Assembly: GCA_017404985.1 (NCBI GenBank)
Contig: JAFRBK010000014.1
Span: forward strand, 1-64,000
Reading direction: 5' to 3'
From: Clostridia bacterium
GTDB lineage: Bacteria; Bacillota; Clostridia; Christensenellales; Aristaeellaceae
DNA length: 64,000 nucleotides
A program made the translations under genes and the position numbers. The notes beneath the pieces were generated by a model. It saw nothing but the letters and a program-made list of their open reading frames with translations. It searched no databases and was not told where the DNA came from. Shown here in pieces: positions 25,502 through 29,762 of the stretch (position 1 is its first letter; every line of letters begins with the position of its first letter).

Positions 25502-28024
25502 TTATTTTTTTCCGGTTCCGGCGGTATCGATTCCCGCGGCGCCGACCAGGCCCAGCCGCTGCGCTGCTTCCTCCCGCATCTTGTACTTCAGGATTTTTCC
25601 CGCGGCATTCATGGGGAAGGAATGCACGAACTCAATATACTGGGGCACTTTATGGCGGGCCATATGGCTCTTAATATACTCGGAAATTTCGTTTTCCGTC
25701 ACAACGGCCCCTTCCTTCAGGATAATGCAGGCCATGACCGCTTCGCCGTATTTGGCATCCGGCACGCCGATAACCTGAACATCCGCCACGGAAGGATGGG
25801 TGTAGATAAACTCCTCAATTTCCTTCGGATAGATATTTTCACCTCCGCGGATAATCATATCCTTGATCCGGCCGGTAATCAGATAGGTTCCGTCCGGATT
25901 TCTTCTGGCCAGGTCGCCGCTGTGGAGCCAGCCGTCCTGGTCAATGGCGGCGCACGTCGCCTCGGGCATTTTGTAATACCCTTTCATGATATTATATCCT
26001 CTGGAACAGAATTCCCCGTCCGTGCCGTCCGGAACCTCTTTGCCGGTTTCCGGATCCACGATTTTGCACTGGACATGCGGGAAGGCGTATCCGACCGTTT
26101 CCGTCCGAAGCTCCAGGGAATCAGTCCAGGCGCTCATGGTGCTTCCGGGAGAGGACTCCGTCTGGCCATAAACGCTGACGATTCCGCGCATGTTCATTTC
26201 ATCCGGCTGCGCCGCGCGCTTCATCAGCTCCGGAGGGCAGCCGGAGCCCGCCATGATGCCGGTTCGCATATGGGAAAAATCCGTCTTCCGGTAATCCGCG
26301 TGGTTAAACATGGCAATAAACATCGTCGGCACGCCGTGGAAACAGGTGATTTTTTCCTGGTTGATGCAGGCCAGGGAGTTTTTCGCCGAAAAATAGGGGA
26401 GCGGGCACAGGGTGGTTCCGTGGGTCATGGAAGCGGTCATCGCCAGCACCATGCCGAAGCAATGGAACATCGGGACCTGGATCATCATCCGGTCGGCCGT
26501 GGACAGGCCCATCCTGTCGCCGATACATTTGCCGTCGTTCACGACATTGTAATGGGTCAGCATGACGCCCTTCGGGAAGCCGGTGGTGCCGCTGGTATAC
26601 TGCATATTGCAGACATCATCGGGAATGACCTTTTCCTGATAACTCTTCAGGATTTCCTCGGACACCGCATCGAAACGGTGCATCGCTTCCTCAAAGGTCA
26701 GGCATCCGGCCTGACGGAAGCCGACGGTAATCACATTCCGGAGGAAGGGGAGTCGCTTGCAGTGAAGCGGTTCGCCGGCTTTGCTCTGCCTGATTTCGGG
26801 GCACAATTCATTGATAATGCTCTGGTAATCACTGTCCAGGGCCTTTTCAATCATCACCAGCGTATGGGTATCGCTCTGGCGAAGCAGGTACTCCGCCTCA
26901 TGGATCTTATAGGCTGTATTGACTGTTACCAGCACAGCGCCGATCCGGACCGTGGCCCAGAACGTCAGATACCAGGCGGGGACATTTGTTGCCCAGATCG
27001 CGACTTTCGTTCCGGGGCGAACCCCCATGGCAATCAGGCTCCGGGAAAGCCGGTCCACATCCTCCCGGAATTCAGAATAGGTTCGGGTGTAATCCAGGGT
27101 GGTATACTTGAACGCATACTGGTCCGGGAACTCTTCAGCCATCCGGTCCAGCACCTGGCCGAAGGTCAGGTCAACCAGCTCGTCCTTTTTCCAGACATAT
27201 TTTCCGGTGCCGTCATGATTGAAATACAGGGTTTTCTTTTTTCCCCTCGGGTTATCAAACCGGTTCATGTAATTCAGGAAATGGCTGAAAATGATTTCCC
27301 GGTCCTGCAGCTCCTCAATCCATTCCGGTTTCCATTCCAGGGAAATGAAGCCGTTATAGTCAATCGAGGAAAGAGCGTTCATCATGTCCTGAATCGGAAT
27401 CGTGCCTTCGCCGATCAGGTTATAGGTCAAATCGTCATTCGAGTCTCTCAGGTGGACATGGCGGACATATCCGCCCAGGTTCCGGATCGTCGTATCCGGC
27501 TTTTCCTGATAATCGCGGTAGGGATGGTGCATATCCCATAGGCAGGCCAGGTCGTCGCTTGCATAATCATCCAGCAGTGCCCGGAGGCGTTTGGTATCCG
27601 CATAGATTCCGACGGTTTTCAGAAGAATGCAGATCTTTTTTTCCGCCGCTTTCAGAAGCAGGCGATCCAGCGAAGCACGGACGTTTTCCTCGCAGTCGCC
27701 CAGCGCGCAGAACGCGAGATACGGAATGCGGAAAGCGGATGCCAGATCCATCAGGTCCGGGATGGTTTCATCCAGCGCAGACGAGATATCGGTGCTGAGA
27801 TCAATCGAAGTATCCAGGCAGGGGACCGTCAGATGGTTTTTCCGCAATTCGCGGATCGTTTCATTCTGCTGGTACTGATGAAACGGGCTGCCGGGCTCTT
27901 TCCAGTCCTTCTGCTTATGGGGATTGTACAGCTCGATGCCGGAAAACTGAAGGTCCGCCGCGTCATGAACGTTTTCCTCCCAGGAAACCTTCTCCCATCC
28001 TCTGGTTGAAAAAGAGAGTTTCAT
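25502..28024 (-). CDS. Fusion of a xylose-isomerase-like TIM barrel with an acyl-CoA-synthetase-type adenylating enzyme
   Basis: This is an 840-residue two-domain protein. Residues 1 to about 270 are an AP-endonuclease-2/sugar-isomerase TIM barrel. Likely metal ligands are the Glu of GIELYNP, WDMHHP, the His pair of HVHLRDS and the Glu of ISLEWKPEW. The Glu expected on the middle strand appears replaced in LLKTVG. From about 275 onward it is a complete AMP-forming ligase with MQYTSGTTGFPKG, YGQTESSPGST, HSGDLARRNPDG, TGRIKDMIIRGGENIYP and the C-terminal catalytic Lys in NAAGKILKYKM. The ligase resembles medium- or long-chain acyl-CoA synthetases. It overlaps the LeuA-like gene by 4 bases, so both are made from one T-box-controlled message. 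The fusion suggests successive steps on one substrate, which is unknown. Confidence 0.88.
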   Translation of the reverse strand: MKLSFSTRGWEKVSWEENVHDAADLQFSGIELYNPHKQKDWKEPGSPFHQYQQNETIRELRKNHLTVPCLDTSIDLSTDISSALDETIPDLMDLASAFRIPYLAFCALGDCEENVRASLDRLLLKAAEKKICILLKTVGIYADTKRLRALLDDYASDDLACLWDMHHPYRDYQEKPDTTIRNLGGYVRHVHLRDSNDDLTYNLIGEGTIPIQDMMNALSSIDYNGFISLEWKPEWIEELQDREIIFSHFLNYMNRFDNPRGKKKTLYFNHDGTGKYVWKKDELVDLTFGQVLDRMAEEFPDQYAFKYTTLDYTRTYSEFREDVDRLSRSLIAMGVRPGTKVAIWATNVPAWYLTFWATVRIGAVLVTVNTAYKIHEAEYLLRQSDTHTLVMIEKALDSDYQSIINELCPEIRQSKAGEPLHCKRLPFLRNVITVGFRQAGCLTFEEAMHRFDAVSEEILKSYQEKVIPDDVCNMQYTSGTTGFPKGVMLTHYNVVNDGKCIGDRMGLSTADRMMIQVPMFHCFGMVLAMTASMTHGTTLCPLPYFSAKNSLACINQEKITCFHGVPTMFIAMFNHADYRKTDFSHMRTGIMAGSGCPPELMKRAAQPDEMNMRGIVSVYGQTESSPGSTMSAWTDSLELRTETVGYAFPHVQCKIVDPETGKEVPDGTDGEFCSRGYNIMKGYYKMPEATCAAIDQDGWLHSGDLARRNPDGTYLITGRIKDMIIRGGENIYPKEIEEFIYTHPSVADVQVIGVPDAKYGEAVMACIILKEGAVVTENEISEYIKSHMARHKVPQYIEFVHSFPMNAAGKILKYKMREEAAQRLGLVGAAGIDTAGTGKK

Positions 28025-29436
28025 GCATTCTCCTCCTCAAACGTAATCTTGTTCAGCGCATTGATATAGGCCATAATGCTGGAACCGATGATATCGGTGC
28101 TCAATCCCCGGCCGGAATAGAGCTTGCCGTTGCTGCGGAGCTTCACAATCGTTTCACCCATCGCTTCCCGGCCCTCCGTAATGGCTTGAATCTGGAAATC
28201 ATCCAGCTCGAAATGCTTGCCGATGGCTTTTTCAATGGACAGGAACGCGGCATCCACCGCGCCGTCCCCGGCGGAAACCCCTTCCAGTTCTTTATCGTGC
28301 AGGCTGATTTTCATATGCGCCATTGCGCCGATGGAATAATCCGTATTCACTGTGTAGCGGACATCATGATAGGCGGACGGAACCTGCATGGCTTCCGCGG
28401 CGATGATCGCATCCAGCTCCCGGAGCGAGATCATGTTCTTCTTCGCGGCGATATGGCAAAAGCTGTTCCAGACCTTTTCCTGGTCCTCCGGATTCAGGTC
28501 GTACCCCAGCCTTTCAACGGCGCTCAGCAGGGTTTCCCGGGAGTCGCTGGCATACAGCCCGCCGGCCGTATCCGCCGCGCTGTCCCCGGCCGAACCTGCG
28601 ATGCTGCCTTTGCCGCTGAAAAACATGTCCATCTGGTTGACGACCCGGCGAATCTGCTCAGTATTCAACGAGGTCCGCACGCCGAATTCGGCGCCTTTCA
28701 TGTGGATCACGCGGCAGATGTTCGCCAGCGAAACCGCGTCACTGCGGCAGGCAACCGCTTTGATTTCCCGCGCTCCATGGCGGACAGCGGCTACGGCACA
28801 CGCATCCGCGAGGGCCAGGTTATTGGAGAAGCCGAAGCCCAGCGTAACCTCCTTCAGCTCAGGCACATCCGCTGCCAGCCGGTCGAGGAATGAAGCTACT
28901 TCATCAGGGAGCATCTCTCCGGCCCTGTCAGACAGGGTGATGGTTCCGGCACCGGCTTTGACCGCTTCCTGAAGAATGCCGCAGAGAAAATCATGGTCGC
29001 TCCTGGTCGCGTCTTCAGCGATGAACTCCACGTTCTCCGTCCATTTTCTGCATTCCCGGATCGCGTCGGAGGCTGCTTTTAGCACAGCCGCCGGCTTCAT
29101 GTGCAGAAGGTATTCCATCTGAACGCTGGAGACCGGAACCGCCACCTGGAGGCGGGCAGAAGCAGCCTGCCGGAGAGTATCCCATGTTTCCTGAACGCTT
29201 TCAGGGGTCAGTCCGACAGGCACGGCTACCGTCACATTTTTTACAGCTGAAACAACGCTCTTAATCAGAAGGCTGTCTATTTTCTTCTGGCGGATCGGGC
29301 TGAGCTGAATCACCGAGACGTTCAGCTTGTTCACCATTTTGCAAAACTCGATTTTTTCCCGAAAGCTAAGGGAGATCTGATCCTCCGGGCCCGCAAGGGT
29401 ACAGTCGCTGATCCGAACCAAATCCATGCTTTGCAT
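28021..29436 (-). CDS. Isopropylmalate/citramalate-synthase-like protein lacking the usual metal ligands
   Basis: The ATG at 29434-29436 is chosen because AAGGAGG precedes it by 8 bases, just after the T-box terminator. The product is 471 residues. It has the HMGL-like TIM barrel (ISDCTL at the N-terminus, VEFIAEDATRSDHDFL and a DRAGEMLP-type stretch) and the C-terminal LeuA regulatory domain (VNTDYSIGAMAHMKISL, IIGSSIMAYINALNK). The catalytic DTTLRDG is replaced by DCTLAGP, HxHND by GFSNN, and the GERAGN loop by ACRSDAV. The Arg, Asp and both His residues that position substrate and metal are therefore gone. It is probably not a classical 2-isopropylmalate synthase; it may be a pseudoenzyme or bind differently. 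It is translationally coupled to the TIM-ligase fusion downstream. Confidence 0.82.
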   Translation of the reverse strand: MQSMDLVRISDCTLAGPEDQISLSFREKIEFCKMVNKLNVSVIQLSPIRQKKIDSLLIKSVVSAVKNVTVAVPVGLTPESVQETWDTLRQAASARLQVAVPVSSVQMEYLLHMKPAAVLKAASDAIRECRKWTENVEFIAEDATRSDHDFLCGILQEAVKAGAGTITLSDRAGEMLPDEVASFLDRLAADVPELKEVTLGFGFSNNLALADACAVAAVRHGAREIKAVACRSDAVSLANICRVIHMKGAEFGVRTSLNTEQIRRVVNQMDMFFSGKGSIAGSAGDSAADTAGGLYASDSRETLLSAVERLGYDLNPEDQEKVWNSFCHIAAKKNMISLRELDAIIAAEAMQVPSAYHDVRYTVNTDYSIGAMAHMKISLHDKELEGVSAGDGAVDAAFLSIEKAIGKHFELDDFQIQAITEGREAMGETIVKLRSNGKLYSGRGLSTDIIGSSIMAYINALNKITFEEENA

Positions 29437-29456: not shown

Positions 29457-29727
29457 AAAAACCCCGAAGCTGACATAATGCTTCAGGGACGAAAAACTCC
29501 GCGGTACCACCCGATTTATTCCTTTTCCAGGAATCACTCTCGAACTCATACAAGTTCAAAGCCGATGACGGGGCGACCGGATTCCATTACCGACTGGCAG
29601 GCAGTTTTGACAGAATCAGCTCCGGAATCAGTATTCCCTGTGCCTCGTACCGCCTCGCAGCAAACGGCGGCTCTCTGAAACAAAGTGAACAGGATTTCTT
29701 TCCTTCATCGCTTTTCCATATGAAATT
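29457..29727 (-). promoter_or_regulatory. T-box riboswitch (tRNA-sensing leader) with terminator
   Basis: On the minus strand, the leader has the Stem I AG motif AGAGAG near 29670. The diagnostic T-box GGGTGGTACCGCG lies at 29500-29512, and the terminator has arms CCCTGAAGC and GCTTCGGGG followed by T5 (29457-29488). The specifier region is near 29611-29640. Candidate triplets there include CUG (Leu), AUU (Ile) and UUC (Phe), and none could be fixed by eye. Uncharged tRNA pairing with the T-box would allow transcription into the LeuA-like gene. Confidence 0.92.
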
Positions 29728-29733
29728 ATGGCG

Positions 29734-29762
29734 ATATTAGCATACTTTCCCCACCGTGTCAA
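29734..29762 (-). promoter_or_regulatory. Sigma-A promoter of the T-box operon
   Basis: On the minus strand, -35 TTGACA (29757-29762), a 17-base spacer and -10 TAATAT (29734-29739) lie directly before the T-box leader. Confidence 0.82.

Follow-up and report, generated by a model that had tools for sequence, protein, structure and literature searches.

A Two-Gene Leucine T-Box Operon as a Probable Route from Isovalerate to Leucine in Gut and Rumen Bacteria Without the Normal Leucine Pathway

Introduction

Why should an acyl-CoA ligase be placed behind a leucine-specific RNA switch, next to a relative of an enzyme of leucine synthesis? This question is raised by a locus on a stretch of 64,000 nucleotides from a Clostridia bacterium of the Aristaeellaceae (assembly GCA_017404985.1, contig JAFRBK010000014.1), referred to below as the window. 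The locus carries a T-box leader RNA, a gene for a protein resembling LeuA (2-isopropylmalate synthase), and a gene that joins a TIM barrel to an AMP-forming acyl-CoA ligase. The two genes are called the pair, and their products the LeuA-like protein and the fusion. We will argue that gut and rumen bacteria devoid of the normal leucine pathway probably build leucine from isovalerate by means of this two-gene operon. The most likely substrate of the ligase is isovalerate, as we infer from the T-box, the neighbouring genes and the gaps in the pathway. It is very likely, in our judgement, that the pair constitutes the leucine branch of a pathway in which branched-chain amino acids are made from branched-chain fatty acids.

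Results

The operon is encoded on the minus strand, in the order promoter-like site, T-box, LeuA-like gene, fusion. Its features are the following.

29734 to 29762, minus strand: sigma-70-like promoter, TTGACA-17-TAATAT with TG ahead of the second hexamer (10/12 in a consensus scan; a consensus match only)
29482 to 29717, minus strand: T-box leader RNA, RF00230 (cmscan 109.6 bits against a gathering score of 93; full model, positions 1-219)
29629 to 29631, minus strand: stem I specifier codon CUG (leucine); an A comes next, then a UUCC strand pairing with GGAA (Rfam alignment and codon-blind reader)
29462 to 29488, minus strand: T-box terminator hairpin with U run, loop of 9 nt (RNA fold −14.7 kcal/mol, z −4.4, 0/200 shuffles as good)
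28021 to 29436, minus strand: LeuA-like protein, 471 aa, an HMGL barrel without metal ligands plus a LeuA_dimer domain; proposed leucine-sensing partner (PF00682, PF08502, residue columns, AlphaFold2, Foldseek)
25502 to 28024, minus strand: TIM-barrel/acyl-CoA-ligase fusion, 840 aa; proposed isovalerate–CoA ligase (open frame, Pfam, relatives)
27239 to 28024, minus strand: xylose-isomerase-like TIM barrel, fusion residues 1-262
25559 to 27175, minus strand: AMP-forming acyl-CoA ligase with core motifs, fusion residues 284-822 (PF00501, PF13193, invariant core residues)

A preliminary description, made from the letters of this DNA, had reported the 840-residue frame, the overlap of its start with the stop of the LeuA-like gene, and a tRNA-sensing operon. 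All of this is borne out: the frame is real (its minus strand was absent from that description), its ATG overlaps the preceding stop by 4 bases, and the leader is recognized as a T-box. Since the next gene downstream of the fusion, that of MreB, is on the other strand, the transcription unit most likely comprises the LeuA-like gene and the fusion only.

Relatives of the fusion were collected by a search of genome contigs, and the best 80 of at least 593 were kept as loci. The LeuA-like partner, whose co-occurrence with this architecture had been suggested as a check, precedes the fusion in 79 of the 80; in the remaining locus, L072, the contig ends within the gene. An overlap of 4 bases between the two genes is seen in 59/79 loci, and one of 1 base in 9/79. 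The idea that a sequencing error had joined two genes is ruled out, as all 80 loci match across both domains, 79 of them from residue 1.

The codons read by the leaders bear most directly on the function. For the counts we used a codon-blind reader that requires only the pairing of the flanking stem, with a relaxed 5′ motif, spacing limits and a core no more than 300 bp upstream. All 47 pair T-boxes decoded in this way specify leucine (29 CTG, 18 CTC), that of the window being CTG, and Rfam alignments give leucine in the five pair T-boxes displayed (L017, L048, L061, L076, L083). The expected link between T-box and pair held in part: a core is present in 55 of the 73 testable loci and absent from 18, while the upstream sequence was too short for the test in six further loci. 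An earlier version of the codon-blind reader demanded a strict 5′ motif, later relaxed and supplemented with spacing limits, with no codon named; it had returned leucine for 21/23 pair T-boxes (the others being GGA in L036 and AAG in L062), and isoleucine or valine for 6/11 ligase T-boxes, with other codons in 5/11.

Near the pair there are also proteins composed of a helix-turn-helix, a cupin and an AMP-ligase domain, called HTH-cupin ligases here. Among 53 copies, 33 T-boxes could be decoded as 23 ATC (isoleucine), 8 GTC and 2 GTA (valine), with no other codon; the remaining copies have undecoded cores (8) or no core (12). Rfam alignments of L017, L080 and L082 match these readings. The window's own genome holds all three T-box-ligase units, with a valine (GUA) T-box before the ligase on C28 and an isoleucine (AUC) T-box before that on C48. 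The best-scoring curated family of these two ligases is MbcS, NF047394 (436.5 and 445.1 bits, below the cut-off of 850). According to an excerpt of PMC10026030, MbcS of Staphylococcus aureus activates 2-methylbutyrate and isobutyrate, and isovalerate poorly. The first two are the acids corresponding to isoleucine and valine, respectively, and the poor activity on isovalerate is consistent with leucine requiring a ligase of its own.

Other T-boxes are also seen in the window's genome. A class I/II aminotransferase on C41 is headed by a tyrosine (UAC) T-box, and a ThrS-like gene by a threonine T-box. Three tryptophan (UGG) T-boxes occur in the set L094, L095, L098 and L099; by eye, the one in L095 lies before an anthranilate-synthase-like frame and the one in L098 before a transporter-like frame. 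The specifier of L099 was read by eye as ACC, and the Rfam alignment there looks shifted by one base.

Judged from its sequence, the ligase part of the fusion is a complete AMP-forming acyl-CoA ligase of the ANL superfamily, in line with the adenylating enzyme with all core motifs that had been described. Both Pfam domains score above their curated cut-offs (AMP-binding PF00501, residues 293-684, 299 bits; AMP-binding_C PF13193, residues 735-810, 67 bits). The fusion alignment contains 77 of the 80 sequences (L049, L069 and L073 were left out), or 86 together with nine fetched genomes. What we take to be the ANL core residues, namely the stretches Y/TSGTTGFPKG and YGQTE along with D704, R719, E729 and K810, are kept in 86/86 at the sampled columns, with K810 in 85/86 and one gap. 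The structure predictions took in 65/76 fusion and 62/74 LeuA-like sequences. The TSGTTGFPKG stretch is invariant in 65 fusion sequences. The median identity to the window is 79 % for the ligase vs 54 % for the TIM barrel.

With its T-box and its conserved partner, the enzyme is the acid-activating protein tied to amino-acid metabolism in one conserved operon that the preliminary description had envisaged. The acid, supposed there to be unusual, is most likely plain isovalerate. It would serve as a precursor and not as a product, and the chemistry, carboxylation to the leucine keto acid, is known.

We compared the gene content of 150 relative genomes, counting as carriers those whose LeuA-like match reached 198 bits or more, which gives 53 carriers and 97 non-carriers. 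The carriers mostly lack the standard leucine pathway genes LeuA, LeuB and IlvC. LeuA scores over its cut-off in 0/53 carriers vs 33/97 non-carriers (p 6e-8, from Fisher tables that ignore shared ancestry), LeuB in 1/53 vs 39/97, and IlvC is found in 2/53 vs 34/97. Outside the window's genus, the numbers are 0/19 carriers vs 33/86 for LeuA and 0/19 vs 39/86 for LeuB. The genes that the proposed route would use are instead frequent, with IOR alpha in 49/53 carriers vs 63/97 non-carriers and VorB in 49/53 vs 57/97; among the matches listed, a full-length HTH-cupin ligase is present in 43/53 vs 26/97.

The window's genome, which is 85 % complete, lacks any match to LeuB or IlvC at E ≤ 1e-40, and holds VorBAC, IorAB-PaaK and IlvE. 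Genes for the ligase, a 2-oxoacid:ferredoxin oxidoreductase and an aminotransferase thus occur together there, as they do in nine clusters from other genomes. Its HMGL-domain proteins besides the LeuA-like protein are a subunit of oxaloacetate decarboxylase/pyruvate carboxylase type and the protein of L089. As a side observation, an IorA-IorB-PaaK operon is located on C12 (L117:1014-4677), and aryl acids may be carboxylated there too.

Next, we consider the neighbours of the pair in the 80 loci, where neighbour families were confirmed for examples. In 21/80 loci, a PFOR-type oxidoreductase gene follows the pair on the same strand at a distance of up to 1.2 kb; it is separated by no more than about 130 bases in 19 of these, and an IlvE gene comes before it in the other two. 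IlvE itself is no more than 600 bp from the pair in 8/80, and VorB or VorA is in the flanks of 6/80.

In the 53 carriers, VorB lies within 11 kb of the pair on the same strand in nine. These regions, L100-L108, were picked for the nearby VorB, and therefore only their remaining contents count as independent. All nine contain the LeuA-like gene, the fusion, IlvE, VorB and VorA together. In L102, L104 and L106 the order is leucine T-box, LeuA-like gene, fusion, isoleucine T-box, ligase, valine T-box, ligase, IlvE, a protein of about 222 residues, VorB and VorA. These three T-box units recur in L103, where IlvE follows VorA. All three T-boxes of L104 are also supported by Rfam alignment. A leucine T-box precedes the pair in L100, L101 and L107, and no T-box core was found before it in L105 and L108.

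Some further genes were observed in these surroundings. The protein of about 222 residues lies between IlvE and VorB (L100:8157-8825, L101:6769-7437, L102:14165-14839, L104:13355-14023, L106:5089-5757, L107:6110-6784), and gives a weak ParA/CbiA P-loop match in L100, L102 and L104, the three that were scanned. A gene for an amidohydrolase (PF04909) borders the pair cluster at L054:8500-9318 and L104:2042-2839. Upstream of the pair in L082 (1300-3054) there is a dehydratase of IlvD/EDD type that scores below the IlvD cut-off.

These data bear on two other uses of the ligase. The first is that it makes branched acyl-CoA primers for membrane lipids in the manner of MbcS, with the leucine T-box only reporting a scarcity of the keto-acid source. 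MbcS, the nearest curated relative of the HTH-cupin ligases, indeed feeds fatty acid synthesis in S. aureus, according to the excerpt of PMC10026030. However, the clustering of leucine, isoleucine and valine ligases with IlvE and VOR points to amino acids, LeuA, LeuB and IlvC are mostly missing from the carriers, and no fatty-acid-synthesis gene was noticed among the recurring neighbour families, of which only some were identified. We consequently regard a lipid function as improbable.

The second is leucine degradation, in which VOR or PFOR would decarboxylate oxidatively to isovaleryl-CoA and the ligase would release isovalerate. VOR and IlvE are reversible and are employed by amino-acid fermenters, which speaks for such a direction. 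However, T-boxes turn genes on at amino-acid shortage, and the control would thus have the wrong sign. The direction is also unfavourable for the ligase, as AMP-forming ligases normally spend ATP to activate acids. Oxidative leucine breakdown, which appears very improbable, was rejected because the T-box induces at shortage.

We now come to the partner of the fusion. The LeuA-like protein contains the Pfam domains PF00682 (HMGL) and PF08502 (LeuA_dimer, 96 bits vs a cut-off of 24.9), and reaches 236.8 bits on TIGR00973, where the cut-off is 598.7. Its AlphaFold2 model has a pLDDT of 90.9, and the barrel superposes on isopropylmalate synthase (Foldseek, 3rmj with rmsd 1.9 and 3ewb with rmsd 1.8). 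For the residue columns, 74 of 80 sequences (79 loci and the window) were aligned, leaving out L028 (stop) and five truncated ones, and nine genomes were added to give 83. The metal ligands of LeuA, which we take to be the Asp of LRDG and the two His of HxH in columns placed by alignment, are gone: the Asp column has Asp in 0/83 and Gln in 55/83, and the HxH columns have His in 1/83 and 0/83. Arg is present at the presumed catalytic Arg column in 7/83. The regulatory domain is better conserved than the barrel (median identity of 60 % vs 45 % to the LeuA-like protein of the window), and its residues G390, G392, G442, G444, S446 and D448 are kept in 83/83.

It could still be asked whether the LeuA-like protein catalyses a condensation of a novel type, using the acyl-CoA delivered by the fusion, with the TIM barrel as an isomerase of the same pathway. 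Its barrel has the isopropylmalate synthase fold, and E108, Y109, D142 and R145 are invariant there (83/83). The metal Asp, the HxH and mostly the catalytic Arg are lost, however, conservation is lower in the barrel than in the regulatory domain, and the ligand-like columns of the TIM barrel are incomplete in part of the family, as detailed below. We find this scheme very hard to credit. A working synthase was rejected on the loss of the metal Asp and HxH, and the keto-acid-synthase-like step of the preliminary description is not supported. The LeuA-like protein looks like a predicted dead enzyme with a retained sensor-type domain, and this remnant may sense leucine.

The TIM barrel of the fusion presents a less uniform picture. 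Its AP_endonuc_2 domain (residues 20-234) scores over the curated Pfam cut-off, and the fold agrees. The window barrel keeps D164, H166, H191 and E230, presumably metal ligands, and has K136 at the column that we take to hold the first Glu ligand of the family. Most metal ligands had been noted in this barrel, which is right for the window and does not extend to the whole family: the four residues are all kept in 72/86 aligned fusion proteins, and seven ligand-like columns are complete in 69/86. They are largely lost in L102, L104 and L106, the loci with the clearest pathway clusters. In addition, L113 and L114, where relatives of the ligase stand alone under a leucine T-box (CUC), have neither the barrel nor a LeuA-like gene in the 15-16 kb fetched.

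Because the ligand-like residues are incomplete in 17/86, essential metal catalysis by the barrel is unlikely as far as the alignment can tell. The catalytic role that had been implied for it, a sugar-isomerase step, is not supported and was rejected as an essential one, as the columns are not kept family-wide and some ligases of this family lack the barrel. With the ligand columns lost, the barrel less conserved and standalone relatives under leucine T-boxes lacking it, a regulatory or docking role is more likely than catalysis.

Concerning the spread of the pair, 163 of 391 genomes drawn evenly from the class match the fusion at E ≤ 1e-100, and in at least 114 the match extends into the TIM barrel; among the matches listed, most of those without the barrel are ligases of the same family. 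The fusion shares 65-82 % identity with the window protein in records labelled Clostridia, Erysipelotrichaceae, Eggerthellaceae and Bacteroidia. Because these values span distant labels, they suggest horizontal spread of the pair, the alternative being binning errors in metagenome-assembled genomes. In L046, L047, L051, L056, L057 and L064, labelled Bacteroidetes, Salinivirgaceae, Bacteroidaceae or Bacteroidia, the pair is present with no T-box core. L056, L057 and L064 have a PFOR-type gene downstream of it, and either cross-phylum transfer or binning errors may have brought this about.

Discussion

The route that we propose would operate as follows. When uncharged tRNA-Leu accumulates, the T-box, whose leucine specifier is observed, would let transcription continue into the pair, as is known for T-boxes in general. 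The ligase would then convert isovalerate, ATP and CoA to isovaleryl-CoA. A 2-oxoacid:ferredoxin oxidoreductase (VorBAC, PFOR-type or IOR), its genes being present, would work in the carboxylating direction to give 4-methyl-2-oxopentanoate, which IlvE, also encoded, would aminate to leucine. The LeuA-like protein, as a dead isopropylmalate synthase, would have kept its leucine-binding-type domain to restrain the ligase at high leucine, and the TIM barrel might be a structural or regulatory module, perhaps a putative docking site for the LeuA-like protein.

Beyond this, we tentatively entertain, with slightly more doubt than belief, a wider picture. In it, an isopropylmalate synthase that has lost its activity would serve anew as a control subunit, sensing leucine and docking via the TIM barrel, for the first enzyme of a different leucine pathway. 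The three ligases under leucine, isoleucine and valine T-boxes would enable much of the Clostridia, and perhaps some gut Bacteroidia, to grow on the branched-chain fatty acids of their neighbours when leucine, isoleucine and valine are not supplied.

It is important to point out what weighs against the proposed isovalerate route, besides the shared ancestry disregarded in the Fisher tables. The contrast is weaker when any LeuB-family match at E ≤ 1e-40 is counted (8/53 carriers vs 48/97 others), and at least nine carriers have a whole-profile LeuA-family match of 174-241 bits, below the cut-off. There are exceptions among the carriers, with a canonical LeuA in two pieces in G057, LeuB in G043, IlvC in G050 and G053, and no IOR in G098. 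In the window's genome no LeuA scores over the cut-off, an absence that its incompleteness limits. The L089 protein of that genome (L089:1333-2727, on C34) is a member of the IPMS/homocitrate synthase family that reaches none of the NCBIfam cut-offs (best 135 vs 463 bits), and no oxidoreductase is linked to the pair there.

The leader RNAs and the ligase itself add further points of this kind. Among the testable pair loci there are, next to the 47 decoded ones, 8 with undecoded cores and the 18 without a core. The nearest NCBIfam model of the window ligase, PRK12583 (fatty acid CoA ligase family), gives 666 bits against a cut-off of 832; a standalone relative scores 807. Near the standalone ligases, a homocysteine S-methyltransferase-like gene is observed (L113:6132-7529, L114:4617-5936) with no oxidoreductase beside it, which is a misfit to the isovalerate model. 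Finally, for Prevotella bryantii a lax acetyl-CoA synthetase has been assumed to activate isovalerate (excerpt of PMC7709123).

If the wider picture is true, many gut bacteria listed as auxotrophs for branched-chain amino acids would be prototrophs that depend on fatty acids. Auxotrophy predictions for gut genomes could change. An amino-acid reconstruction published for human gut genomes has 699 genomes as leucine, isoleucine and valine auxotrophs, and its main text holds no word starting with "carboxylat" or "ferredoxin". The proposal covers activating enzymes for each of the three branched acids, together with tRNA switches and carboxylating partners, and it bears on branched-chain volatile fatty acids as growth factors of rumen bacteria. 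The operon may name missing genes for a rumen process reported since the 1960s.

Comparison with Known Systems

Allison and co-workers reportedly described the isovalerate carboxylation route of leucine synthesis in rumen bacteria in 1962 and 1966, and the route is old physiology according to an excerpt of PMC7356843. A 2020 paper states, in the part excerpted, that the reaction from branched acid to amino acid is still without proof (PMC7709123). In the open-access literature, leaving aside subscription papers and preprints, we found no isovaleryl-CoA ligase gene for leucine synthesis, no such fusion and no T-box control of such ligases; the accessible main text of surveys of T-box regulons does not contain "acyl-CoA". 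As to the earlier idea of an uncharacterised pathway, no open-access paper that we found names these genes; the chemistry is known in rumen bacteria. In the known pathway as in our proposal from genes, isovalerate is carboxylated and aminated to leucine in gut and rumen anaerobes; that pathway is known as physiology, while a ligase, a leader RNA and a regulatory partner are proposed here.

Among the enzymes, MbcS is likewise an AMP-forming ligase of branched short acids and the closest curated family for the isoleucine and valine ligases, but it feeds membrane lipids and is poor on isovalerate, whereas the window ligase is nearest to PRK12583 and is fused to a TIM barrel. The arylacetate system IorAB-PaaK, which acts on aryl acids, also combines a ligase with a 2-oxoacid:ferredoxin oxidoreductase and is present in the window's genome, but in a separate operon and without a LeuA-like partner or a TIM barrel. 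Isopropylmalate synthase is feedback-inhibited by leucine. The LeuA-like protein shares with it the two-domain layout and the LeuA_dimer domain, and differs in being without metal ligands and far under the family cut-off.

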